Positions 1-12,328 of a stretch of 64,000 nucleotides of DNA are shown here, one piece after another. The notes under the pieces were generated by a model. It ran no database searches. It was not told the origin of the DNA and worked only from the letters and a program-made list of their open reading frames with translations. The first letter of the stretch is position 1. Each line of letters begins with the position of its first letter. The stretch comes from Bacteroidales bacterium (lineage in GTDB: Bacteria > Bacteroidota > Bacteroidia > Bacteroidales > WCHB1-69), in the NCBI GenBank assembly GCA_016285145.1, contig JAEEQE010000011.1, positions 1 through 64,000 of the forward strand. The letters are read 5' to 3'. A program made the translations under genes and the position numbers.

Positions 1-1077
1 ACCGTGAACAAGAAGGACGGCACGCCGCAGATTGAATACAAAAAAGAGTTTACCGACCCCTATAACCGTTTGGTCTATGGCATTCCACCTTACAGCAATG
101 GTGATTTTGCCTTCTTGCAGCACATTATCGCCTCGCTTGACCAGAAAGGCAAGGCAGGCGTGGTGTGCCCGCAAGGCGTGCTGTTCCGCGGCCAACCCGA
201 GAAGACCGAAGAGGAAGATGGACAGAACCGCAAGGCAGATGTGGAGTACACGATTCGGCGTGGTTTCCTGCAAGGTGTTGATTTCAAACAGCATATCAAC
301 ATCATTGATGCCATCGTGGTGCTGCCGGGCAACCTGTTTTATGGTACCACTATCCCAGGTGCCATTATATTCTTCGACAAGAATAAGCCCGAAGAGCGTA
401 AGAACAAGGTGCTGATGGTGTATGCCGCCAAGAAAGGCTGGTACCGCGAAGAGGCCAACATGAGCGTATTGGAGCCACAGGATGTGTTGCGCATTTCCAC
501 TATGCTCGAAAGCTGGGGCGATGTTGAAAAGGCTCAGAAATGGATTGCACAGCAAAAGAACAGGCTTCATAATCAGATTGACGAAGAACTCGTTTTTCAA
601 CTGTCTGAGGTAGAGAACGACACGGCGGAAGAGATGGCCAAGATGCGCGACAGATTGGCAAAAGCGGAATCAACCATAAAAGAGAAAGAGGCTTTAGGCA
701 AGAAAACGACGGCAAGTGAGAGAAAAGCAGTGGAAACAGCGCAGAAGGCTTTAGAAAAGCTGACTTCCGACAAGACTGCCCGCGAAACAGCCTTCCGGGA
801 AAAAGCTGAAAAAATTCGTCAAGCCATTGCCAATGTGGAGACCGAACTGCTACAGATGTTCGCCGACCCCGAACTGCGCAAGCGTTATTTCTCCATTGTG
901 GATATGGACGAGATTGAGGAAAACGAGTTCAACCTCAATATTCCGCGCTATGTGGATACCTTTGAGCCCGAGGAACAGATTGACCTGAAAGAAGCCATTG
1001 CCGATTTCCAAAAGGCGATGCAGACGGAATCGGATGTGGAGAAAGAGTTGGAGACACTGTTGAAGAATTTACAATGA
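1..1077 (+). CDS. hsdM: Type I restriction-modification DNA methyltransferase subunit HsdM, 3' part
   Basis: This is the C-terminal 358 codons of an N6-adenine methyltransferase subunit; the 5' end lies outside the window. HsdM pairs with HsdS to methylate a bipartite site and with HsdR to cut unmodified DNA. Visible family features are the segment IPPYSNGDFAFLQHI, the strand GVVCPQGVLFRG and LPGNLFYGTTIPGAIIFFDK near residues 105-125, all characteristic of the region after catalytic motif IV. The SAM-binding motif and the NPPF/Y catalytic motif are therefore expected upstream and cannot be checked here. Residues 185-285 are a charged, helical coiled-coil region, as usual for HsdM C-termini that contact HsdS. 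The next gene begins three bases after the stop, so both are likely in one operon. Confidence 0.93.
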   Translation, partial: TVNKKDGTPQIEYKKEFTDPYNRLVYGIPPYSNGDFAFLQHIIASLDQKGKAGVVCPQGVLFRGQPEKTEEEDGQNRKADVEYTIRRGFLQGVDFKQHINIIDAIVVLPGNLFYGTTIPGAIIFFDKNKPEERKNKVLMVYAAKKGWYREEANMSVLEPQDVLRISTMLESWGDVEKAQKWIAQQKNRLHNQIDEELVFQLSEVENDTAEEMAKMRDRLAKAESTIKEKEALGKKTTASERKAVETAQKALEKLTSDKTARETAFREKAEKIRQAIANVETELLQMFADPELRKRYFSIVDMDEIEENEFNLNIPRYVDTFEPEEQIDLKEAIADFQKAMQTESDVEKELETLLKNLQ

Positions 1078-1080
1078 ACG

Positions 1081-2901
1081 ATGATGCAGTACGATATACA
1101 TACTTTACAGTACCAGCCGGAGGGTCAGCAGTTTGACCGCAAGAGTTTTCGTGTTGAACCGAAAGCCTTGGCGGTGATTGCCGTGGCTTTTGCCAATGCT
1201 GACGGCGGCGATATCGTAATCGGCATTGAGGATGACGGACGAATCACAGGCGTTAATGGAAACGAAGACCATTTGAATGAGCTTTTGCGTGTGCCATTTG
1301 ACTTTTGTATTCCTTCGATCAATGCAGAAGCGCATTTTGTGGATTGTACGGATGATGGTGGAGATGCCAACCGCGTGTTAGTGATGCATATCGAACCCAG
1401 TATGCGCGTTCATGCCAACCAGTCCGACGAAGCTTATTATCGCGTTGGCGACAAGTCGAAAAAGCTGAACTTTGAGATGCGGATGCAGCTGTTCTATGCC
1501 AAAGGGGGACGCTATTTCGAGGACGAACCCGTGTATGGAGCTACGATGGACGACTTGGACCTTGATTTTGTAAAGCAGTATTGCGACAAGATTGGTTACG
1601 CCAAAGATGCCGAGACATACCTTCGCACCAACAAAGATTATGTTACCGCTGTAAACGGAGTGGATAAAGTTTCCGGGGCAGCTATCTTGCTGTTTGGCAA
1701 GGACCCGCAGAAGTTCTTCCAGCGAGCGCGAATCCGAATTGTACGTTATGATGGCGACGAGGAACGTTTCGGGCGTGAAATGAACGTGGTGAAAGATGTC
1801 TGGTTTGAGGGACGCATTGTAGAGATGACCCAAAAAGCCATTGATTTTGTGGATACACAGATCAAGGAGTACAGCTTTTTGGGGGAGGATGCCCGATTTG
1901 TCACCATTCCCCAATATCCACCGTTCTGCTGGACAGAGCTCATCGTGAATGCCGTGGCCCACCGCGACTACAGCATTTTGGGAACCGACATCATGGTGAA
2001 AATATTCGACCACCATTATGAGGTTGAAAGTCCGGGCATACTGCCGGGTATGGTGCGCATCGACAATATCCGCCAGATGCATTTTTCACGCAATCCCAAG
2101 ATTGTACAGTTTATGCAGCAGTACAAGTTGGTGAAGGAATTTGGCGAAGGTGTTGACCGTTTGTTCCGCGAAATGGCCGAGGCGGGAAATCCTGCGCCAA
2201 TATTTAAGCAGGTGGACTTTATGGTGAAGGTTAGACTTAATTCTGCGTTACGAGAAGACAATGTTACCAAAAAAAAGTATCATGATACTTTTTTGGACTC
2301 TCAAGAAAGTAACATGAAAAGTAACATGAAAAGTAACATGAAAAGTAACATGAAGAATGAGCTGCTCATTATCGAAACGATAAAGGCAAATCCATCTACT
2401 CCAATTCCCATCTTTCAAAAAATCACTGGATTATCACGAAGTGGTGTATGGAAGATTTTAAACAGACTGCGTGAAAAGGGACTTGTCAAGCGTGTAGGCT
2501 CCGACAAGGATGGCCGTTGGGAAGTGTGTGAATATGAGTTAAATGCAAAGTCGGGAAGTGGACCAAAAAGTACGCGAAATAGCAGGAGTAAAACCACAAA
2601 GACAAGCGACAAGCAAGCGATAAATTTAAAAACAGGCGATAAAGCAAGCGACAAACAGGCGACAAATTCAAAAACAGGCGACAAAACAAGCGATAAACAG
2701 GCGATAATATTAGAATACTTGTCAAAGAACACCGATGTTACAACGAATCAAATGTCTGAGGTTCTAAAAATAAGCCTGTCGAGAACGCGCTATTATCTAA
2801 ATTCCATGGTAAAATCCGGGCTAATAGTTGCATACGGTGCAAACAAGAACAGAACCTATAGAATTAACAATGAACAATGTACAATTGATAATGAACAATG
2901 A
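1081..2901 (+). CDS. AlbA_2 / HATPase_c_4 (Schlafen-like, COG2865) protein inside the hsd operon
   Basis: 606 residues. Residues about 10-140 form an AlbA_2 (Schlafen-type) domain with the typical FANADGGDIVIGIEDDG segment. Residues about 280-375 carry a HATPase-like region (ELIVNAVAHRDYS, then FGEGVDRLFREM). The C-terminal third has two winged-helix segments (about 420-470 and 540-595) joined by a low-complexity linker. The family is often found between hsdM and hsdS in type I systems, with unknown role; nucleic-acid binding or regulation is inference. Odd features: an A8 tract, four perfect 12-bp repeats encoding SNMK, and two 42-bp repeats encoding SDKQA..KTGDK. The last eleven codons (NNEQCTIDNEQ) come from an intergenic-type AACAATT repeat, so the C-terminus has probably been extended by readthrough into the repeat. 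The stop overlaps the hsdS start (ATGA). Confidence 0.85.
   Translation: MMQYDIHTLQYQPEGQQFDRKSFRVEPKALAVIAVAFANADGGDIVIGIEDDGRITGVNGNEDHLNELLRVPFDFCIPSINAEAHFVDCTDDGGDANRVLVMHIEPSMRVHANQSDEAYYRVGDKSKKLNFEMRMQLFYAKGGRYFEDEPVYGATMDDLDLDFVKQYCDKIGYAKDAETYLRTNKDYVTAVNGVDKVSGAAILLFGKDPQKFFQRARIRIVRYDGDEERFGREMNVVKDVWFEGRIVEMTQKAIDFVDTQIKEYSFLGEDARFVTIPQYPPFCWTELIVNAVAHRDYSILGTDIMVKIFDHHYEVESPGILPGMVRIDNIRQMHFSRNPKIVQFMQQYKLVKEFGEGVDRLFREMAEAGNPAPIFKQVDFMVKVRLNSALREDNVTKKKYHDTFLDSQESNMKSNMKSNMKSNMKNELLIIETIKANPSTPIPIFQKITGLSRSGVWKILNRLREKGLVKRVGSDKDGRWEVCEYELNAKSGSGPKSTRNSRSKTTKTSDKQAINLKTGDKASDKQATNSKTGDKTSDKQAIILEYLSKNTDVTTNQMSEVLKISLSRTRYYLNSMVKSGLIVAYGANKNRTYRINNEQCTIDNEQ
2269..2276 (+). repeat. 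A8 homopolymer in a palindromic coding segment
   Basis: Eight A residues lie in the linker of the AlbA_2 gene. They form the left arm of an interrupted palindrome centred on GTATCATGATAC (2277-2288), with six T and GG on the right side (2289-2296). Such runs are prone to replication or transcription slippage. Confidence 0.6.
2307..2354 (+). repeat. Four perfect 12-bp tandem repeats in coding sequence
   Basis: The unit AAGTAACATGAA occurs four times without change. The period is a multiple of three, so copy-number changes alter the linker length (SNMK units) without a frameshift. Confidence 0.95.
2605..2709 (+). repeat. 42-bp tandem repeats in coding sequence (two full, one partial)
   Basis: Unit 1 (2605-2646) and unit 2 (2647-2688) each encode SDKQA(I/T)N(L/S)KTGDK(A/T). 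The third copy (from 2689) begins SDKQAI and runs into the C-terminal winged helix. The repeats look like duplications of the leader of that domain. Confidence 0.9.
2862..2886 (+). repeat. AACAATT-family repeat, copy 1 (inverted partner at 5831-5855)
   Basis: This 25-bp segment matches the reverse complement of 5831-5855 at 23 of 25 positions; the shared core is ACAATGTACAATT. It lies in the tail of the AlbA_2 gene just before hsdS. Confidence 0.8.
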
Positions 2902-4184
2902 TGGAGAAACAGACTAAAATAGGAACTATTCCCGAGGGATGGAAAGTGAAGAAACTTAAAGAGGTTTTTCACATTAATGAATTGTCGTTGCCTTCGAACA
3001 CGGACGCAAATTATAAGTTCAAGTATATTCCAATTGAATTTGTTTCAACGAATCATATTGACTATGGGAATTGTGAAAGCTTTCGTTTTGTAGATGCGCC
3101 AGGAAGAGCAAGGCGTATTGTTAGAGAAAATGACATTCTCATTTCTGGTGTAAGACCAAATCTGAAGTCTTTTGCAGTATTTAAAAAGCCCGATGATAGC
3201 AATTGGATTTGTTCTACAGGTTTTTATGTGCTTACGGCAAAGGAAGAAAGTGACAATCTATTTTCCTATTATGAATTGTTAAGTGAAATCGGTGAAAGTC
3301 AATTTTATAGCTATGTGGCAGGTTCTAATTATCCTGCTATAGGAGATGGTGACATTCGCAATATGAAATTGATGTTTCCAAAGGACAAGTCCGAGCAATC
3401 CGCCATAGCCGCCATTCTCTCCAAGGTTGACGAGGCGATAGCAACAGTGCAAGCCAGCATATCCGCCGCCGAGCGGTTGAAGAAGAGCCTGATGCAGAAC
3501 CTCCTCACCGGCCGCATGAAACCCGACGGCACGCTTCGCAAAGAGGATGAGTTTTATGTGGATGAGAAGTTCGGAAAAGTGCCCGTGGGGTGGGAGGTGA
3601 AGAGGATTGATGAGATTGCTGATTTTGTGCAATATGGATTGAATCAAGCTTCATCTGAAACTGGCAATATCCCAATGTTTCGCATGAATAACATTGTGAA
3701 TGGTGAAATGCAAAACTATCCTTTGGTCTATGTGAACTTGAATGAAACCGCATTGTGTCAATACAAATTGGAAAAAGGGGATATATTGTTCAACCGTACC
3801 AATAGTATGGATCTTGTAGGCAAAGTGGGTGTCTTTAAATTGGACGGAGATTACGTATTTGCTTCCTATTTGATTAGAATTCGAGTCTCGAAAGATAACA
3901 ATCCGTATTTTGTCAATTATGCATTGAATTCATATCCAATTCAATGTTCGTTAAGGTCGAAGGCGACACCAGCTGTAAGTCAAGCAAATATTAATTCTAA
4001 AAGTCTTAGGAATACTTCTATCATTATTCCAACGAATAAGAAGGAACAAGACGAAATTGTTTCTAGAATAAATAATGTTGAAAACGAAATAATTAACAAA
4101 CAAAACAAAATCGTCGTCCTCGAAAGACTGAAGAAGTCATTGATGCAGAATTTGCTGACGGGGAAAGTGAGTATTAATAAATAG
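2898..4184 (+). CDS. hsdS: Type I restriction-modification specificity subunit HsdS
   Basis: 428 residues, a normal length for HsdS, which sets the DNA target of the HsdM2S methylase and HsdR2M2S nuclease. It has the expected two-half design: target recognition domain 1 (about 10-165), a helical spacer (about 165-210), target recognition domain 2 (about 230-380) and a second helical spacer (385-428). Both spacers carry the identical peptide ERLKKSLMQNLLTG (residues 192-205 and 409-422, bases 3471-3512 and 4122-4163); the DNA of the two copies has diverged in synonymous positions. The half starting 'VPVGWEVKRIDEIADF' mirrors the N-terminal 'IPEGWKVKKLKEVF'. It starts inside the preceding stop codon, implying translational coupling. 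The recognition sequence cannot be predicted. Confidence 0.95.
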   Translation: MMEKQTKIGTIPEGWKVKKLKEVFHINELSLPSNTDANYKFKYIPIEFVSTNHIDYGNCESFRFVDAPGRARRIVRENDILISGVRPNLKSFAVFKKPDDSNWICSTGFYVLTAKEESDNLFSYYELLSEIGESQFYSYVAGSNYPAIGDGDIRNMKLMFPKDKSEQSAIAAILSKVDEAIATVQASISAAERLKKSLMQNLLTGRMKPDGTLRKEDEFYVDEKFGKVPVGWEVKRIDEIADFVQYGLNQASSETGNIPMFRMNNIVNGEMQNYPLVYVNLNETALCQYKLEKGDILFNRTNSMDLVGKVGVFKLDGDYVFASYLIRIRVSKDNNPYFVNYALNSYPIQCSLRSKATPAVSQANINSKSLRNTSIIIPTNKKEQDEIVSRINNVENEIINKQNKIVVLERLKKSLMQNLLTGKVSINK

Positions 4185-4195
4185 TTTAAAATATT

Positions 4196-4390
4196 ATGGG
4201 AGACAGTTTTAAAATGAAATGCCCTAATTGTGGCGCATTATTAAAGATTAATGAAACAGGAGAGTTATTTCCTGGAGGAAAAGAACGGGAAGAAGCTTAT
4301 TGTCCAAAATGTCATCATGAAGTATATTCGGCAATGACATCCGGATTTGTAAAGGCATTTGAGATTTCTGAAGATGAGTTTAATGAATAA
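4196..4390 (+). CDS. Small zinc-ribbon protein paired with dGTPase gene
   Basis: 64 residues with CPNC at 9-12 and CPKC at 36-39, the two knuckles of a zinc ribbon, followed by an acidic tail. No family is recognised beyond that fold. It starts 11 bases after hsdS and ends 11 bases before the dGTPase gene. It shares that gene's AT-rich composition, unlike the hsd genes, so the two probably moved together. A role as partner or DNA/RNA-binding accessory of the dGTPase is inference. An internal ATG at 4214 is an alternative start, but the longer form is kept because nothing separates them. Confidence 0.75.
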   Translation: MGDSFKMKCPNCGALLKINETGELFPGGKEREEAYCPKCHHEVYSAMTSGFVKAFEISEDEFNE

Positions 4391-4401
4391 TCCTAATTGT
4401 A

Positions 4402-5754
4402 ATGGCTATGGATAAGTTTGAAACATCTATTATTGAACAGATTTCGAATATATATGAAAAACTCCAGAATCCTGAATGTAAGGGTCGTGAATATACTGAA
4501 GATAGTGCTGATGGCAGATCCGAATATGCGAGGGATTATGCAAGAATATTATATTCATCGTCGTTTCGTAGGCTTCAAGGTAAAATGCAGATATTAGGAA
4601 TTGAAACAACTGCATTTTATAGGAATCGATTGACTCATAGCCTTGAAGTGTCTCAAATTGCACGATCTTTGGCGAAAACATTAGCATTGAAATGCGGAAA
4701 AGAAAATGAAATGTATTGTGACGAGGAATTATATCTTTTAGATGCGGCAGCATTGGCACATGATATTGGACATCCTGCATTTGGACACAAAGGTGAACGG
4801 GTGTTAGATGAAATCGCAAGGCTCTACGGTCATAGGTTTGAAGGCAATGCTCAAAATTTTAGAGTTTTACGTAAACTGGATAGACATGGGTCATCTCCAA
4901 AAGGTCTTAACTTGACTCACAGAACATTACTCGCAATCAATAAATATATCATTGATGAAAATATTGAAAAGAAAGGTAATCCCAAAAAGTTCATGTATCA
5001 TGAAGATTATTGTTTTATGGATGAATTTCGTCAAAAGAATGATATAAAAGATCGAACTCTTGATGTCCAAATAATAGAAATTGCCGATGATATTGCTTAT
5101 GCTGTACATGATTTAGAAGACGGTTTGGCTCAAGGATTGTTTACAATTGACGAGATCACACATGAAATCAAGACATTTAAAGACGTAAAGGATAGAATAA
5201 AAAAAGAGGATATAGATAGAGCGGCAAATGAGTTTTGGGAGATTGTTAAAGGAATCAAAGAAGGTCTTGATAATGAAGAAAAGTCAACTACAATACAAGA
5301 ATACTCACACCTGTTCAGAAAACAATTGACATCGAAATTAACTGACGATTTTGTAAGAAGTATTGTATTTGAAAATTACGCAGATATAAATGAGAACGAA
5401 TTATGCATGGATTCAATGCATAGAGTATTATGCTCCATTTTGTCTAAAATTATATTCAAAGGAGTAACCCGTAACACATCAATTGCTTTGTATGAATTGA
5501 AAGGCGAAATAATTATCAAATCTTTGTTCAATATCTTTGTTGATAAGAATATAAATAAGAATTACTTGCTTTTACCACCTGATTACAGACCAAAAGAAAG
5601 CGACAGCCAAGAACAGATTGCTAGATGTGTTATTGATTATATTGCTGGTATGATGGATACTTATGCGATTTCAGAATTTGAACGTTTAACAGGGGTGTCT
5701 TACGATAGTATTGATGTAGCTAAAATTCCAAATGTTAATAGAAAATCCTCATAA
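4402..5754 (+). CDS. dGTP triphosphohydrolase (HD-domain dGTPase), island-borne
   Basis: 450 residues. The family hydrolyses dGTP (or other dNTPs) to the nucleoside and triphosphate. Diagnostic segments are YARDYARILYSSSFRRLQGK (about 42-61), the first metal-ligand His in NRLTHSLEV (His79), the HD pair in ALAHDIGHPAFGHKGE (His120-Asp121) and EIADDIAYAVHDLED (about 226-240) with the last Asp ligand; all four ligands are therefore present. The gene is markedly AT-rich compared with the hsd and Fic genes, a sign of separate origin. dGTPases that drain dNTP pools are known anti-phage defences; that this copy defends is inferred from its site inside an R-M locus. A housekeeping-type dgt that was captured is the alternative. 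Confidence 0.9.
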   Translation: MAMDKFETSIIEQISNIYEKLQNPECKGREYTEDSADGRSEYARDYARILYSSSFRRLQGKMQILGIETTAFYRNRLTHSLEVSQIARSLAKTLALKCGKENEMYCDEELYLLDAAALAHDIGHPAFGHKGERVLDEIARLYGHRFEGNAQNFRVLRKLDRHGSSPKGLNLTHRTLLAINKYIIDENIEKKGNPKKFMYHEDYCFMDEFRQKNDIKDRTLDVQIIEIADDIAYAVHDLEDGLAQGLFTIDEITHEIKTFKDVKDRIKKEDIDRAANEFWEIVKGIKEGLDNEEKSTTIQEYSHLFRKQLTSKLTDDFVRSIVFENYADINENELCMDSMHRVLCSILSKIIFKGVTRNTSIALYELKGEIIIKSLFNIFVDKNINKNYLLLPPDYRPKESDSQEQIARCVIDYIAGMMDTYAISEFERLTGVSYDSIDVAKIPNVNRKSS

Positions 5755-5765
5755 CTAAAAAATAT

Positions 5766-5825
5766 GTGTCACAACTGCACGAAAACAAGCCCGTAGAATC
5801 CAAAGTCACCGAATGGCTCACCCAA
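5766..5825 (+). pseudogene. Remnant of the 5' end of an hsdR gene
   Basis: Read from the GTG at 5766, this stretch encodes VSQLHENKPVESKVTEWLTQ, followed directly by AACAATT-type repeat sequence. Bases 5791-5825 match 8645-8679 of the intact hsdR at 34 of 35 positions and in the same reading frame (VESKVTEWLTQ). The first nine residues differ from the intact gene, so the scar comes from a related allele rather than a simple local copy. It marks a recombination junction. Confidence 0.85.
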
Positions 5826-5830
5826 ATAAT

Positions 5831-5855
5831 AATTGTACATTGTAAATTGTTAATT
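5831..5855 (-). repeat. AACAATT-family repeat, copy 2 (inverted)
   Basis: The reverse complement matches 2862-2886 at 23 of 25 bases. Together the two copies bracket hsdS, the zinc-ribbon gene, the dGTPase gene and the hsdR scar in inverted orientation. Confidence 0.8.
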
Positions 5856-5865
5856 GTCAATTGAA

Positions 5866-6738
5866 ATGAAAACTTCCATCCGCTTTTATAACGATCGCGA
5901 GGTGCGGGCTGTGTGGGACGAGAGCCAGAACAAATGGTGGTTCTCGGCTGTTGACATTGTTGCCGCCATCACCGAAAGCCCCAATCCGAGAAAATATTGG
6001 AGCGTGCTCAAAACCCGACTGAGAAAAGCCGGAAACGAGTTGACTACAAAATGTAGCCAACTCAAAATGACCGCTGCAGATGGTAAAAAATACGCTACCG
6101 ATTGCTTTTCTCAAGACGATATAACTGAATTGGTGAAACTTATCCCCAGCAAAAAGACTGCCGATTTCCTCGACTGGTTTACCTACAGCGACAACACCAT
6201 CGACGGGCAGAGCCGCAAAAAAGCATACGAACTGTGGGAAAGCCATCTAGTGGAGGATAGCGACGTGGGCTCCACCAAAGGCCTGCAACAAATCCATGCC
6301 TACCTGTTTGGCGGTTTGTACGATTTTGCGGGTCAAATCCGCACCAAGACCATTTCAAAAGGCGGATTCACATTCTGTGTGGCCCAATACCTGCCCCAAG
6401 CCCTGCAAACCATTGACAAAATGCCCGAAACCACCTTTGAAGAAATCGTGGACAAATACGTGGAAATGAACGTGGCGCACCCCTTTATGGAAGGCAACGG
6501 TCGCTCAACGCGCATCTGGCTCGACATGATCCTGAAAAAACGGCTGAAAAGTTGCATTGATTGGAGCAAGATCAACAAGAACGACTATCTCCATGCTATG
6601 GAACTAAGCGCCGCCGACACCACTCTCATCCGTCAGTTGTTAACCGGAGCCCTTACCGACAAGATTGACGACCGAGAATTGTTTATGAAAGGGATTGATT
6701 ATTCATATTATTACGAGGAAACAAATCGAATAGAATGA
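5866..6738 (+). CDS. Fic-domain protein with N-terminal BRO-N-like domain
   Basis: 290 residues from the ATG at 5866; a TTG at 5854 would add only repeat-derived residues and is rejected. The N-terminal ~105 residues (IRFYNDREVRAVWDESQNKW...FSAVDIVAAI) resemble BRO-N / phage antirepressor DNA-binding domains. The rest is a Fic fold with the complete active-site loop HPFMEGNGRSTR (205-216), which transfers AMP or another phosphate-containing group from a nucleotide to a target protein. The C-terminus holds SYYYEE (280-285), close to the class III auto-inhibitory pattern (S/T)xxxE(G/N) but with Glu instead of Gly/Asn at the last position. No separate antitoxin gene adjoins it. Target and toxicity are unknown. 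Its composition resembles the hsd genes rather than the dGTPase gene. Confidence 0.9.
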   Translation: MKTSIRFYNDREVRAVWDESQNKWWFSAVDIVAAITESPNPRKYWSVLKTRLRKAGNELTTKCSQLKMTAADGKKYATDCFSQDDITELVKLIPSKKTADFLDWFTYSDNTIDGQSRKKAYELWESHLVEDSDVGSTKGLQQIHAYLFGGLYDFAGQIRTKTISKGGFTFCVAQYLPQALQTIDKMPETTFEEIVDKYVEMNVAHPFMEGNGRSTRIWLDMILKKRLKSCIDWSKINKNDYLHAMELSAADTTLIRQLLTGALTDKIDDRELFMKGIDYSYYYEETNRIE

Positions 6739-6739
6739 T

Positions 6740-6747
6740 TATTTTTG
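6740..6747 (+). promoter_or_regulatory. Promoter -7 element (TATTTTTG) for second AlbA_2 gene
   Basis: A perfect TAnnTTTG match lies just after the Fic stop and 17 bases before the ATG at 6765, so the downstream gene can be transcribed on its own. Confidence 0.6.
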
Positions 6748-6764
6748 CAGAACAAACATAGCCT

Positions 6765-8414
6765 ATGACTATCGAAGATATAAGGAACAAATTTGAAGAA
6801 CTCCGTTCGACTTCGGAGAATGAAACGGTTGAGTTCAAGGAGGCCAAGGAAAACTTTGATTTCAATACACTTGGCAAGTATTTCTCCGCTTTGAGCAACG
6901 AGGCCAATCTGCAAGGTGTGCGTTGCGGTTGGCTTGTGTTCGGGGTTCACGACAAGAAGCGAGGAGTGGTCGGAACCTCCTACAGAAACGACCCAAAGAA
7001 ACTGCAATCGCTGAAACACGAAATTGCCCAAAAAACAACGGGAAATCTTACGTTTTCAAATGTTTTTGAATTAGAAGTGGAAGGCAAACGTGTTCTTTTG
7101 TTTGAGATACCCGCCGCACCGCAAGGCGTTCCGATTGCTTTTGACGGACATTTCTATGGGCGAGATGGAGAGAGTTTGGTTGCCCTCAACCTGCAAGAGA
7201 TGGAAACCATACGGAACCAGAGATCATTTGACTGGTCGGCTCAAGTTGCAGAAGGTGCTACCATGGATGATTTGGACAGCGAGGCATTGAACAAAGCCCG
7301 GTTTGAGTTCAGAAAGAAAAACCCCGACATTGCCGATGAAATCAACCACTGGAGCGATGCAACTTTCTTGAACAAGGCAAGACTGACAGTCAACGGCAAG
7401 ATTACCAATGCAGCCCTCATCCTTTTAGGGACACCCGAATCGGCAGTCCGTCTTATGCCTGCAATTGCACAAATGACTTGGATTTTGAAAGATGAAGATG
7501 GTATAGAAGTGGACTACAAGCACTTTTATCCGCCTTTCCTGATGTCGGTGGACAAGTTGCTCTCCCAAATCAGGAATATCACTTTCCGCTATCTTCCTGA
7601 CAACACTTTGTTTCCGGACGAAGTGATGAAATACGACAATTATGTCATCCGAGAGGCTTTGCACAATTGCATAGCCCATCAGGATTATTCGCTGAGTGAA
7701 CGAATCAATGTGGTGGAAACCCCAGATTCATTGTTGTTTTCGAATGGAGGTGCCTTTATTCCACAAACTATTGAAAATGTGATAGAAAAGGATGCTCCGC
7801 AAAGGTATTACCGCAACACCTTTCTATGTGTTGCAATGGTCAATTTGAACATGATTGACACCATAGGAAGCGGCATTAAAAGAATGTTTGTCTGTCAAAG
7901 GAAACGTCTTTTCCCATTGCCAGATTATACTATAACAGAAAAAGAGGTTTCAGTAACTATCTATGGCAAAGTTATTAACGAAAAGTATGTCAAGCTGTTG
8001 AAGGAAGACGAAAATCTTACACTTGCACACATTATTGCTTTGGATAAGGTTCAGAAACAACAGCCGATTGATGCTAAGATGGCAAAACTGTTGAAGTCAA
8101 AGACGTTGATTGACGGAAGGAAGGGAAATTACTTTTTGTCGGAAACAGCATCAGCACAAGTGGGAGAAATGGTAGAATATGTTCAGAACAAGGCTTTCAA
8201 CAAGAAATATTACATTGATTTGTCATACGAACTCATTAAGAAGCAAAATGCAAAAGGAACAACCAGAAAAGAGATAGATTCTCTTATCATTCCAAAATTG
8301 TCTAAGATCTTGAATGATGATCAAAAACGAAACTTTGTTAGAAATATGCTTCATCAAATGGTTGTAGAAGAGATGATTGTATCCAAAGAAAGACGGTATT
8401 ATTTAAAGACATAG
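6765..8414 (+). CDS. Second AlbA_2 / HATPase_c_4 (Schlafen-like) protein
   Basis: 549 residues. An AlbA_2 domain spans about 5-140 (NETVEFKEAKENFDFNTLGK, FGVHDKKRGVVG). A HATPase-like region spans about 290-385 (REALHNCIAHQDYSLSERIN, DTIGSGIKRMF). The C-terminal 150 residues look like winged-helix segments. It has the same domain plan as the gene at 1081-2901, but the sequences are clearly different, so it is not a recent duplicate. It is separated from hsdR by an 11-bp tandem repeat array. In type I loci this family is a frequent passenger; its task there is not established. Whether it is an effector or regulator of the R-M system is open. Confidence 0.85.
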   Translation: MTIEDIRNKFEELRSTSENETVEFKEAKENFDFNTLGKYFSALSNEANLQGVRCGWLVFGVHDKKRGVVGTSYRNDPKKLQSLKHEIAQKTTGNLTFSNVFELEVEGKRVLLFEIPAAPQGVPIAFDGHFYGRDGESLVALNLQEMETIRNQRSFDWSAQVAEGATMDDLDSEALNKARFEFRKKNPDIADEINHWSDATFLNKARLTVNGKITNAALILLGTPESAVRLMPAIAQMTWILKDEDGIEVDYKHFYPPFLMSVDKLLSQIRNITFRYLPDNTLFPDEVMKYDNYVIREALHNCIAHQDYSLSERINVVETPDSLLFSNGGAFIPQTIENVIEKDAPQRYYRNTFLCVAMVNLNMIDTIGSGIKRMFVCQRKRLFPLPDYTITEKEVSVTIYGKVINEKYVKLLKEDENLTLAHIIALDKVQKQQPIDAKMAKLLKSKTLIDGRKGNYFLSETASAQVGEMVEYVQNKAFNKKYYIDLSYELIKKQNAKGTTRKEIDSLIIPKLSKILNDDQKRNFVRNMLHQMVVEEMIVSKERRYYLKT

Positions 8415-8415
8415 C

Positions 8416-8569
8416 AGACGTTTTCCAGACGTTTTCCAGATGTTTTCCAGATGTTTTCCAGATGTTTTCCTAATGTTTTCCTAATGTTTTCCTAATGTTT
8501 TCCAGACGATTTCTAGACGATTTCTAGACGATTTCTAGACGATTTCTAGACGATTTTTAAACGTTTTCT
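8416..8569 (+). repeat. 11-bp tandem repeat array, 14 units, upstream of hsdR
   Basis: Fourteen contiguous 11-bp units fill the gap before hsdR. They fall in ordered blocks: AGACGTTTTCC x2, AGATGTTTTCC x3, TAATGTTTTCC x3, AGACGATTTCT x4, AGACGATTTTT x1, AAACGTTTTCT x1. All share the frame NNAYGNTTTYY. The block order suggests growth by slippage with successive point changes. There is no spacer structure, so this is not a CRISPR. Confidence 0.97.
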
Positions 8570-8619
8570 ATTGTAATAATTTGATATTCAAAGAAATATA
8601 ATAATACGTTTTTTTTGAT

Positions 8620-11600
8620 ATGGCAAAATTATCCGAATCCAAATCCGTAGAGTCCAAAGTCACCGAATGGCTCACCCAATTGGGTTGGGAGTATCGCTCG
8701 GCGGAGGATTTGAAACCCTATAACCGCTTGCAGATGAACGCAGTGGTGGAGCCGATACTGGTGGAGCAGGTGATGGCACTGAACAGCATCAGCCAGCAGG
8801 CGGCCAAGATGGCGGTGGAGACTTTGCTCAACAACCTGCGCAATCCCATCCCCATCGAGGGCAACGAGAAGTTCCTCAACCAGCTCTGCGACGGCGTCAA
8901 TATCACGATTGAACATAAAGACCGCACCATACGCTTCATCAACTTTGAGGATATATGGCAAAACAGCCTTATCGTCACCAACCAATACGCGGTGCAACAG
9001 GTTCGTGCGGATATCTGCCTGTTGGTAAATGGCATACCGTTAGTGCCCATCGAGGCTAAGCAGTGCGCACGGCGCGGCACCAATTGGCTTGAAGGTGTGC
9101 GTCAGTTCCAGACCTACGACCGCCGCAGCGAGAAACTGTTTATGTGCCATCTCTTTGGCGTTGCTTGCAACGGAAGGCTGAGCAAATACGGCATTCCGGG
9201 CGCGTCGTCGTCCTATTTCAACGAATGGAAGGATTCGGTCATCGCCGACAAATACGACAATCCGTTGTTGCACCCCGAAAACGAGTTGTGCCGTGTCTAT
9301 AAGGACGAAAACGATGGCCTGATGCACTTCGATGTAGAACGGCTGCCCAACGGACAGCTATTGGAGCAGATGAAGTTCGGCATCATCGGTTTGTTGCAAC
9401 CTGAGCGTGTACTCGACATCCTGCAACATTTCATCGTATTTGAGCGCGACGACAACAAGATCATCAAGAAAGTGGCGCGTTACCAGCAACTGCGTGCCGC
9501 CAACAAGATTGTGGATAGGGTAGTGCAGTCCGACAAGGCGCAAGGCGTGATTTGGCACACCCAAGGTTCGGGCAAGTCGCTCACCATGCTTTACACTGCC
9601 TACAAACTCCGCAAGACCGAAACCTTGAACGACCCGACCATTTTCATCGTGGTGGACCGCAAGGACCTGAAAGACCAGATGGACGACACCTTCTTCAACT
9701 GTGTGTTTCCGAATGCGAGGGTGGTGATGAGTATCGGCGACTTGAAAAGCATACTCCGAAACCAACCCGCTGGCGTGTTCATCACCACCATTCAGAAGTT
9801 CAAGGAGTTGGGCGAGATCAAGGACGAGCGCGACAATGTCATCGTGCTCATCGATGAGGCCCATCGTACGGAATACGGCGACTATCAGATGGAACTGCGT
9901 GCCGTGTTGCCTAACGCCAAGCGTTTCGCATTCACGGGAACGCCGATTCCCAAGACCCATCGGGAGTTTGGCATCAAGGATGAGAACGGCAAGATAGAGT
10001 ATTATTTGGACAAATACAGCGTCATCGATGCCATCAACGACGGGGCCACCAAGCCCATCCGCTACACTTTGGGCCCTTCGCAGTGGTTCTTGGACAAGGA
10101 AAACCTCAAACAAGGCTATGCCGAAATCACTGCCGAGTTGGAGGAAGACCAGAAACGCTTAGTGGAACAACGCGTGCAGCCCTGGAAAACCCTGATGAAA
10201 AAGCCTGAGCGCATCAAGACCTTGGCCGCCGACATCGCCAAGGACTTTCGCGAACGTTTGGAGCCGCAAGGCTTCAAGGCGCAAGTGGTGGCCATCGACA
10301 AGGAGGCATGTGTGTTGTATTACAACGAATTGCTCAACTATTTCGACCCATCGGAAATCCGCATCATCTTTTCCACAGGACAATACGAAACCAGTGAGCG
10401 TTACGACCTGTTTTCGCCGTTCTACATCGACGACAAGGAGCGCAAACGCCTGATCGACAACTTCAAGAAGCGGATTTCTGATGAAGAGATTGCCAAAGGC
10501 AACAACCTGAAAATCTTCATTGTCTGCAATATGCTGCTCACGGGATTTGACGCACCCATCGAGCAGACCATGTATCTCGACAGTCCTTTGCGCGACCATA
10601 ACCTCTTGCAAGCCGTGGCACGCACTAACCGCCCGTATGACTATGGCGAGGGCGAAAACAAACTCTCCAAAGAGTTTGGTCGCATCGTCGATTATGTGGG
10701 CGTATTCCAGAACTATAAGGAAGCCTTGAACTATGATCCCGAAGACATTGGTGAGTTTGAGGATGTGGATGCTTTATTGGAGGTATTCCCCAAGGAACTC
10801 GATGCTGCTTTTGAGCCTTTTGCCGAAATCAAGTTGGAGGACAGTTACGAGTGCGAAATAGCTATCATTCGCAAGTTGAGCGAGATTGACCACGGGCTGT
10901 TTGAAAATCGTTTCCATCGCGTAGTGCAGCTTTGGGAAGCTATCAGTCCCAATCCAGGTTTGCGTCCGTTCCGTACAAAATACCTGTGGTTAGTGACTAT
11001 TTACGAACTCTACATGGAGGAATTCCGTCGCGTGGATTTCGATGCCGAGTTCTATGCTGCACAGACGCGCAAGTTGTTGGAAGAGAGTGCCACCTTGCTG
11101 GATTTCCGAGGCCATTTGCCCGAAATCGCCATTGATGCGGACTATCTCGCCAAATTGCAGGAAACTCGGTTGTCGCCTTCCGACAAAGCCGAGAAGATTA
11201 TCCGCGACATTGAGACGATGATTCGCACCAACCAGAACAGTAGTGCCATCTATATCGAGTTTCAGGAACGCTTGGATGCGCTTATCCGCTTGAAGAACGC
11301 CAATGCCATTGAGATTGAGGGGCTTTTGAAGAAACTCAGCGAGCTTTACACCGAAGTGGATGAGGCGGTTGAAATCCCCAAAAAGATGGGTTTTGATGAC
11401 AAAGGCACTTTTGAAATTTATCAGATTCTCAAAAATGAACTTCCGCATTTCGATGAATCATTGGCAAGAGAATTTGCCAACGAATTGGCAGCCAAAATTC
11501 AGTCGAGAATTTATATCGGTTGGCAGGAAGTCACACAGGAATACAACCGTTTGTTGGGCGAGGTGGCTTTATTGGCGGCCAACGAAAAATATGATGCCTT

Positions 11601-11673
11601 GGACGTGTACGGAAAAGACATTTTACATGAGACCATCATGGATTCTATTGTGAGAAATTTCAGTTTGAATTGA
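8620..11673 (+). CDS. hsdR: Type I restriction enzyme HsdR (nuclease/translocase subunit)
   Basis: 1,017 residues, full length for HsdR. The N-terminal PD-(D/E)xK nuclease is seen as ADICLLVNG..PIEAKQ (about 130-148, Lys147 in the ExK pair). The superfamily 2 motor follows: Walker A QGSGKSL (315-321), Walker B DEAHR (412-416), motif III FTGTP (about 438-442) and motif VI VARTNRPYDYG (666-676). The C-terminal ~300 residues are helical and would dock on HsdM. It uses DNA translocation driven by ATP to cut far from the unmethylated site. All catalytic motifs are intact. It is separated from hsdM and hsdS by cargo genes, and the 3' neighbour starts one base after its stop. No consensus promoter is seen immediately upstream. 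Confidence 0.96.
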   Translation: MAKLSESKSVESKVTEWLTQLGWEYRSAEDLKPYNRLQMNAVVEPILVEQVMALNSISQQAAKMAVETLLNNLRNPIPIEGNEKFLNQLCDGVNITIEHKDRTIRFINFEDIWQNSLIVTNQYAVQQVRADICLLVNGIPLVPIEAKQCARRGTNWLEGVRQFQTYDRRSEKLFMCHLFGVACNGRLSKYGIPGASSSYFNEWKDSVIADKYDNPLLHPENELCRVYKDENDGLMHFDVERLPNGQLLEQMKFGIIGLLQPERVLDILQHFIVFERDDNKIIKKVARYQQLRAANKIVDRVVQSDKAQGVIWHTQGSGKSLTMLYTAYKLRKTETLNDPTIFIVVDRKDLKDQMDDTFFNCVFPNARVVMSIGDLKSILRNQPAGVFITTIQKFKELGEIKDERDNVIVLIDEAHRTEYGDYQMELRAVLPNAKRFAFTGTPIPKTHREFGIKDENGKIEYYLDKYSVIDAINDGATKPIRYTLGPSQWFLDKENLKQGYAEITAELEEDQKRLVEQRVQPWKTLMKKPERIKTLAADIAKDFRERLEPQGFKAQVVAIDKEACVLYYNELLNYFDPSEIRIIFSTGQYETSERYDLFSPFYIDDKERKRLIDNFKKRISDEEIAKGNNLKIFIVCNMLLTGFDAPIEQTMYLDSPLRDHNLLQAVARTNRPYDYGEGENKLSKEFGRIVDYVGVFQNYKEALNYDPEDIGEFEDVDALLEVFPKELDAAFEPFAEIKLEDSYECEIAIIRKLSEIDHGLFENRFHRVVQLWEAISPNPGLRPFRTKYLWLVTIYELYMEEFRRVDFDAEFYAAQTRKLLEESATLLDFRGHLPEIAIDADYLAKLQETRLSPSDKAEKIIRDIETMIRTNQNSSAIYIEFQERLDALIRLKNANAIEIEGLLKKLSELYTEVDEAVEIPKKMGFDDKGTFEIYQILKNELPHFDESLAREFANELAAKIQSRIYIGWQEVTQEYNRLLGEVALLAANEKYDALDVYGKDILHETIMDSIVRNFSLN

Positions 11674-11674
11674 T

Positions 11675-12328
11675 ATGCTGCCTGATAATTGCTCAGTCAT
11701 ACGTCGAGAAGTCAAGAATGCCCGTCTTCGTGTTCGCGAAGATGGCACTGTGCAGTTGTTTGTCCCTGTGGCGTTCACAGATGAGGATGTCGAAAAGCTT
11801 TTGGAGAAAAAGGCACAATGGATAGCCTCGAAACGGCAATTCTTTGAGCAGAAAACCAAGATCAAACTGCGACGCAACGAAATATTGCTTTTTGGCAACC
11901 GTTATGCCTATTTTTATTCGTCCCAATATCAGAATAAGGTGGTCGTCAATCACGAAAGCAAGACCATTCAGGCAAAACGTGACTTGTTGGATGCGAAAGT
12001 ACAGGAAAAATGGCTGAAATCGGTGGCACGGAAGTATATCTTATCACGAGTCGAGACGCTTTCCGAGGCGCTGCTTCTGCCTTACAACAAACTTTACATT
12101 CGCAGTCAGAAACGGAAGTGGGGGAATTGCTCGTCTGAAAAAAACATCTCTATCAATTGGCGACTGATTAAAGCTCCCGAGTTTGTCATTGACTATGTTA
12201 TCATTCACGAACTGTGCCATACTGTCATTATGAATCACAGTGCCCGTTTTTACACTTTGCTTCGTTCACATTGTCCAGATGGAGAGCAAGCACAGGCGTG
12301 GTTGGATAAGTATGGGAATAGTTTGTAA
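11675..12328 (+). CDS. YgjP-like zinc metallopeptidase (DUF45/WLM type)
   Basis: 217 residues. The family signature is seen at about 140-200: RKWGNCSSEKNISINWRLI, followed by the zinc motif HELCH (HExxH) and NHSARFY with the third ligand region. These proteins are predicted metal-dependent peptidases whose substrates are mostly unknown. They occur very often directly after hsdR in type I R-M operons, and here the start follows the hsdR stop by one base, so the two are surely co-transcribed. A role in turnover of the restriction complex (like ClpXP control of HsdR in enterobacteria) is a guess from context only. Confidence 0.88.
   Translation: MLPDNCSVIRREVKNARLRVREDGTVQLFVPVAFTDEDVEKLLEKKAQWIASKRQFFEQKTKIKLRRNEILLFGNRYAYFYSSQYQNKVVVNHESKTIQAKRDLLDAKVQEKWLKSVARKYILSRVETLSEALLLPYNKLYIRSQKRKWGNCSSEKNISINWRLIKAPEFVIDYVIIHELCHTVIMNHSARFYTLLRSHCPDGEQAQAWLDKYGNSL

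Follow-up and report, generated by a model that had tools for sequence, protein, structure and literature searches.

A 20-codon fragment of the start of hsdR, lying upstream of the intact gene in a Bacteroidales genome, is probably a recombination scar in a type I restriction-modification locus whose hsdS-hsdR gap turns over its cargo, anti-phage genes included, in units that end inside the start of hsdR. This fragment, the stub, occupies positions 5766-5825 of the forward strand of the window, by which we mean the whole 64,000-nucleotide stretch of DNA that was analysed.

The stub and its locus

The presence of hsdM, hsdS and hsdR together, as predicted by Pfam and PADLOC, identifies a type I restriction-modification locus. 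The contig starts inside hsdM, and the 3′ part of this gene (1-1077, forward strand as are all genes given here; Pfam N6_Mtase) is followed by a first cargo gene, which encodes a SLFN/AlbA_2 protein with a HATPase_c_4 domain (1081-2901; Pfam), by hsdS (2898-4184; Pfam Methylase_S), by a 64-residue zinc-ribbon-like ORF with matches below the Pfam cut-offs (4196-4390) and by a dGTPase with an HD domain (4402-5754; Pfam, and dGTPase in PADLOC). The N-terminal part of hsdM, cut at the start of the window's contig, opens contig C64. Beyond the stub lie genes for a Bro-N and Fic protein (5866-6738; Pfam), which matches PDC-S04, a candidate defence system of PADLOC, with an E-value of 5.3e-150, and for a second SLFN/AlbA_2 protein (6765-8414; Pfam). 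The latter gene has 89.4% nucleotide identity to the gene directly before an SQLHENKP-type hsdR in a related locus, L046. Then come the intact hsdR, with the leader MAKLSESKS (8620-11673; Pfam HSDR_N), and a YgjP-like metallopeptidase gene that closes the locus (11675-12328; Pfam). With predicted defence genes in a gap whose content varies among relatives, the locus would be classed as an hsdS-hsdR embedded defence island. Pfam revealed no recombinase domain among the nine window proteins scanned, and we therefore rejected an integrase-driven genomic island, the presence of a 35-nt direct repeat notwithstanding.

The 20 codons of the stub (VSQLHENKPVESKVTEWLTQ) and the beginning of the intact hsdR at 8620 form an alignment without gaps. 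A repeat search of the window paired 5764-5825 with 8618-8679 (62 nt, 81%), and a 33-nt core had two copies in the window and none in 100 shuffles. The first-pass annotation of this DNA had named the segment an hsdR start, and its coordinates, its match of 34 of 35 bases between 5791-5825 and 8645-8679 (one difference) and the shared codon frame were all correct. It had also described the first nine residues as different, which is true of the leaders as wholes (VSQLHENKP in the stub against MAKLSESKS in the window's hsdR), although three residues (L, E and K) agree. After codon 20 (CTCACCCAA) the stub breaks off, as had been described, into a 7-base repeat, an array of ATTGTNA on the forward strand at 5831-5862, of a kind dispersed in the genome. 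Homologous to the intact start, truncated, and with intact copies elsewhere, the stub is a pseudogene remnant of hsdR. Its start codon is GTG, where three related loci (L046, L047 and L054) carry ATG; one substitution, or two bases added after an ATG at 5764 (AATATGTGTCACAA against AATATGTCACAA), would fit equally well. Together, stub and array form a 32-residue reading frame (5766-5864, forward strand), which leaves 1 nt between its stop and the start of Fic at 5866.

An opposite heptad array, on the reverse strand at 2862-2900, covers the 3′ end of the first AlbA_2 ORF and reaches the hsdS start, and its part 2862-2886 is an inverted repeat of 5831-5855. The two arrays (AACAATT and ATTGTNA), in opposite orientations, flank the stretch that begins with hsdS and ends with the stub; a heptad array also encodes the first AlbA_2 protein's NEQ-rich end. 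Elsewhere in the genome such arrays (L118-L132) often lie right after stop codons or in the 3′ parts of ORFs of about 700 residues. Fifteen were placed, out of 20 stretches fetched (the other five failed a stricter array pattern): seven inside the 3′ parts of such ORFs and eight in intergenic sequence, six of these at or right after a stop. Array-like matches are dispersed across the family genomes, and the idea that heptad arrays mark cargo only was rejected.

Other repeats occur in the locus and its relatives. The first AlbA_2 gene contains in-frame 12-base and 42-base repeats (SNMK repeats, 2306-2353 and 2603-2686), possibly a length-variable region. Between the second AlbA_2 gene and hsdR a repeat search found an 11-base tandem array (approximate limits 8409-8579, forward strand) with T-tracts about one helical turn apart, which may bend the DNA upstream of hsdR; in L046 the related AlbA_2 gene has a shorter array of this kind behind it (8062-8177). 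REP-like palindromes stand directly after Fic or Fic stubs in L054 (9300-9520), L044 (9860-9960), L165 and L166, and those of L054, L165 and L166 adjoin a gene whose start we take to resemble that of a GIY-YIG nuclease.

Changing cargo and leaders at the hsdS-hsdR gap

One scan of genome contigs with hsdR as the query gave 39 loci, in which hsdR was accompanied by hsdM in 33, hsdS in 35 and YgjP in 38, several of the misses being contig ends. Some gaps between hsdS and hsdR measure only a few bases and others several kilobases. Among the 39 loci only the window's own and L076, a copy of it, have the dGTPase and the zinc-ribbon ORF; Fic is found in four other loci, and four other loci have relatives of the second AlbA_2 gene. 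The PADLOC calls cover the window and the cargo of relatives was judged by Pfam, which matched 12 of the 20 cargo proteins; caspase-like proteins, a metallophosphatase with a STAND NTPase, a kinase, AAA_15/AAA_21 and AlbA_2 proteins are among them. A bare hsdS-hsdR junction, the ancestral form proposed by the first-pass annotation, exists in L049 and L073, and other loci hold cargo at the same junction. The precursor hsdS-dGTPase-hsdR, which it had suggested looking for, is another matter: searches of 104 family and 393 order genomes with the dGTPase as the query brought up no uninterrupted dGTPase-hsdR, the surroundings of the gene having been read in the window's tract and its copy in G025. 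The gene itself is present in two family genomes, the window's own and G025, where it lies in the same tract, and in two order genomes, the second of which (G384) has a copy only 43% identical.

The tract common to the window and G025 (contig C58, which holds L076 and L142) spans positions 1-9571 and is 99.94% identical over these 9571 bases, the first 9026 without a difference. Between G025 and the window's genome, G000, metG is 77% identical, the sequence beside the G025 locus is 74-81% identical to its counterpart in G000, and the N-terminal part of hsdM (via C64 in G000) is 91% identical. The G025 locus follows ribosomal protein genes (rplQ and rpoA). In G000, provided that contigs C6 and C64 are truly joined at their 78-base overlap, TolC- and MacB-like genes precede it; all four genes were named by eye, and the two chromosomal sites look different. 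The tract fits a recent exchange of the whole locus centre, through hsdM and hsdR. Since the left end of the tract is where contig C6 starts and the right end is where C58 stops, it is possibly an assembly effect of draft contigs instead.

Comparison of 35 hsdR starts, one of them from L076, showed that the intact gene begins with MSQLHENKP in five loci (L039, L046, L047, L054 and L073). Over its 60 bases the stub has 3 mismatches to L046, its nearest relative, 4 each to L047 and L054, and 12 to the window's own hsdR, and it therefore derives from another leader allele. This agrees with the first-pass annotation, which had both attributed the stub to another hsdR allele and predicted related hsdR genes with an SQLHENKP leader.

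The leader is not tied to the body of hsdR. A quick tree was made of 26 hsdR proteins, starting at codon 41; on it the leader type (LHE or LSE) changed at least seven times, and the well-supported branches alone force five to six changes. Changes were as few in 83 and in 162 of 500 shuffles, which means that the leader labels are about as scattered on the tree as shuffled ones. The tree took 26 of 36 sequences, the others being L076 and nine distant ones, none with an LHE leader; the shuffle comparison depends on this sampling, in that the nine left-out sequences would make LSE look more clustered, but the number of changes would not fall. The tree pairs the window (LSE) with L054 (LHE), and L039 (LHE) with L068 (LSE). 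We also rejected a bond between leader type and one particular cargo gene: the hsdR behind Fic is of the LSE type in L068 and L070 and of the LHE type in L052, and the one behind the second AlbA_2 gene is LHE in L046 and LSE in the window. Nor does the start of hsdR appear to be a DNA site conserved for its own sake, as synonymous conservation in codons 10-20 is only mildly raised (in group A, with 14 loci, the identity is 0.71 there and 0.57 overall, and 25 of 989 intervals along the gene are at least as high; in group B, with 7 loci, 86 of 989 are).

The clearest evidence for our proposed mechanism comes from L068 and L070. Their hsdR, hsdM and YgjP genes have diverged at about 19-24% of sites (hsdM is 78.6% and YgjP 76.0% identical), and Fic is 95.0% identical. 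No base differs in the 60 nt before hsdR, 12 of the 20 nt upstream of the Fic start differ, and the first 99 nt of hsdR have 4 mismatches against 19.6% in the remainder (P = 6.8e-6, in a test picked after viewing the alignment). Among 2953 segments of 99 nt along hsdR only three are as low, all at the start. In loci that are otherwise about 80% identical, this argues that Fic and about 33 hsdR codons have a more recent history in common than their surroundings.

Truncated genes at the proposed joints

Stubs recur at these loci. Among 36 sequences upstream of hsdR, an hsdR stub is present only in the window, in its copy L076 and in L052, whose hsdR is 80% identical to that of the window. L052 has the order hsdS, 27-codon hsdR stub (leader MSKLHESIP), Fic and intact hsdR with a different leader, and its stub frame runs right up to the ATG of the Fic frame. 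A further hsdR stub lies in G005, of the window's genus, in the order Fic, metallo-beta-lactamase-fold gene, LSE-type hsdR stub and Fic 5′ stub, with no match to the window's hsd proteins within 14 kb. The G005 Fic gene has 94.4% nucleotide identity to that of the window over 857 bases, and the metallo-beta-lactamase-fold gene is 40% identical to the gene directly before hsdR in L042. This stub has two stop codons and breaks after codon 20, as in the window, and the junction from hsdR codon 20 through the spacer to Fic (5791-5925 of the window) has 80.1% identity to G005 over 136 positions. In the scan of 104 family genomes, matches spanning the hsdR stub and the Fic start came from G000, G025 and G005 only, among the candidates scored (at most eight of each genome, many genomes having more). 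Since the junction in G005 stands behind a different cargo gene and has another leader, it may have reached the window ready-made; the joint of hsdR and Fic may predate its arrival there, and crossovers in codons 10-20 would later have exchanged the leader side. For the same reason the stub is a weak basis for dating the dGTPase and Fic as separate insertions, as the first-pass annotation had done.

Fic 5′ stubs are found in eight places (L043, L044, L045 with two, G005, G082, G063 and G074), and those of L043, L044 and L045 sit in hsdS-hsdR gaps. The two of L045 (7546-7590 and 9509-9553) are separate stubs in a single gap, and those of G063 and G074 look like one event. The stubs break at about codons 12-21 and run into a REP-like palindrome (L044, G063 and G074) or heptad-like sequence (L045 and G082), and in L043 the Fic-AlbA_2 spacer is kept after Fic codon 19. 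An L045 Fic stub passed at an E-value of 0.003 in an earlier search of 23 intervals, with hsdR queries cut at 1000 codons, and fails the 1e-3 cut-off of its repeat on 35 intervals, from which L076 was dropped as a copy. The latter search (150 queries, whole hsdR) found no 3′ stubs in the 35 hsdM-hsdR intervals; the 104-genome scan used a 5′ query only and thus has no bearing on them. In both searches the hits of two queries, an hsdS N-terminus (L042_4478_4768) and an ORF inside hsdS (L072_257_793), were discounted as hsdS paralogy.

We propose that cargo is exchanged in units ending within the first 20-33 or so codons of hsdR, and the leader would therefore travel with the cargo and not with the hsdR body. 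In the window, a Fic-led unit with its own hsdR start would have joined just inside an older hsdR start, with the right joint made via homology in hsdR codons 10-33 and the left joint imprecise, at a heptad array. This would leave a whole hsdR downstream and a 20-codon stub upstream, which may pass ribosomes to Fic. The stub, the switching of leaders, the one unit of Fic and hsdR codons 1-33 and the recurrence of stubs are observed; the order of events, and the joining by homologous recombination, are what we infer. The first-pass annotation had likewise envisaged an interrupted junction, a block joined to it and another allele, for which L052 (hsdS, stub, Fic, hsdR) is a parallel, but a lost full-length second hsdR, though possible, need not be assumed. 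Against reading the stub as a scar stand the failure of the genome searches to bring up a dGTPase-hsdR precursor, the rarity of hsdR stubs, 5′ stubs such as that of L043 that resemble plain deletions, and the mildness of the synonymous conservation in hsdR codons 10-20; the shuffle comparison moreover depends on its sampling, and the 99.94% tract on draft contigs.

Plain deletion probably made some of the Fic stubs and is for this reason the main rival. Two whole hsdR genes, or stacked cassettes, would once have stood in the window's locus, and the first would have been lost from codon 21 to the array before Fic. The Fic 5′ stubs seem to be deletion products, most clearly in L043 with its surviving Fic-AlbA_2 spacer, and the two L045 stubs and that of G082 run into heptad-like sequence as the window's stub does. 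We nevertheless consider this origin unlikely for the hsdR stub: two long hsdR genes occur in none of the 39 loci (L072 has one hsdR, matched in two pieces), a 3-kb duplication followed by near-complete loss would be needed, the stub and the intact hsdR have different leaders, which makes a simple tandem duplication unlikely, and L068 and L070 show that exchange with an hsdR start does happen.

A Campbell-type capture would make the 35-nt copies the ends of an insertion. A circular or concatemeric unit (array, Fic, AlbA_2 and hsdR codons 1-20) would have entered by one crossover in codons 10-20, and the two copies could recombine it out again. Such a single crossover gives the old leader, the core and a break at codon 20 on the left, and the new leader, the core and the resident body on the right; the copies agree at 34 of 35 bases, and G005 has the same break point with another leader. 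A G005 junction of common descent, with its leader exchanged afterwards, also accounts for these facts, though, the break in L052 is at codon 27 and not 20, and neither a circular form nor, in the nine proteins scanned, a recombinase domain was seen, all of which makes the capture rather improbable.

It is very doubtful that the stub works as a short gene, with its 32-residue frame translated and maintained because it couples translation of the dGTPase to that of Fic. Five stubs were examined and are free of internal stops, their extended frames end after 20-45 residues, the stops of the window and L052 lie 1 and 0 nt before the Fic frame, and 5′ stubs were found where 3′ stubs were not (the 35 hsdM-hsdR intervals). 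Yet the distances to the next start are 41 nt in L044 and 31 nt in L045, the homologous stub of G005 carries two stop codons, the window's stub starts with GTG instead of ATG, or has a displaced start, and no intact diverged copy of the frame exists on which selection could be gauged. An assembly artefact is scarcely credible: the close loci do come from draft metagenome genomes and the window's contig begins inside hsdM, but the same arrangement is found in a contig deposited for another genome (L076 in G025, although the assemblies may share reads), and G005 has a related, diverged junction.

A broader, speculative version of our preferred reading, exchange of units ending inside hsdR, would make the first 20-33 or so hsdR codons an attachment site without a recombinase. 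Cassettes of cargo and an hsdR start would enter by short homology and could leave via the direct repeat, hsdR and Fic 5′ stubs would be empty or left-hand ends, and heptad arrays and REP-like palindromes would be the other joint.

Relation to known systems

How defence genes enter and leave restriction loci is often deduced from lists of genes. In these loci the actual joints are visible, as a named boundary (the hsdR start), a unit of Fic and hsdR codons 1-33 with both ends mapped (L068 and L070) and stubs recording past exchanges, and this opens the hotspot to tests, by a search of any hsd locus for stubs and by an excision assay on the 35-nt repeat. Homology-facilitated illegitimate recombination combines one homologous with one imprecise joint, and its product would be an intact gene with a 5′ stub next to it; at the window's locus it is deduced from the sequence, never having been seen in action. 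Among the literature matches listed, no title or abstract opening mentions hsdR stubs or leader exchange.

Proteins of the RloA type are similar to AlbA_2/AAA_4 proteins. The hsd region of Campylobacter jejuni holds the extra genes rloA and rloB, and is in this respect like the window's locus; it differs in that no stub is described in the available part of the report (PMC2928727). In EcoprrI/prrC, as described in the accessible text, an effector gene is likewise embedded in a type I locus, but it is a single effector tied to its enzyme, whereas the cargo of the window's locus differs between relatives (PMC12707154). The closest layout is that of the E. coli RptR-RMS-DarTG-M48 island, where DarTG2 lies between hsdS and hsdR, an M48 peptidase lies downstream, and the site has been called a potential recombination hotspot (PMC12255303). 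In layout, the only feature compared, both have defence genes between hsdS and hsdR and a closing metallopeptidase gene, M48 there and YgjP-like here. The E. coli island belongs to other bacteria and has other cargo, and the available part of its description includes no hsdR stub, leader exchange or unit of cargo and hsdR start (PMC12255303).
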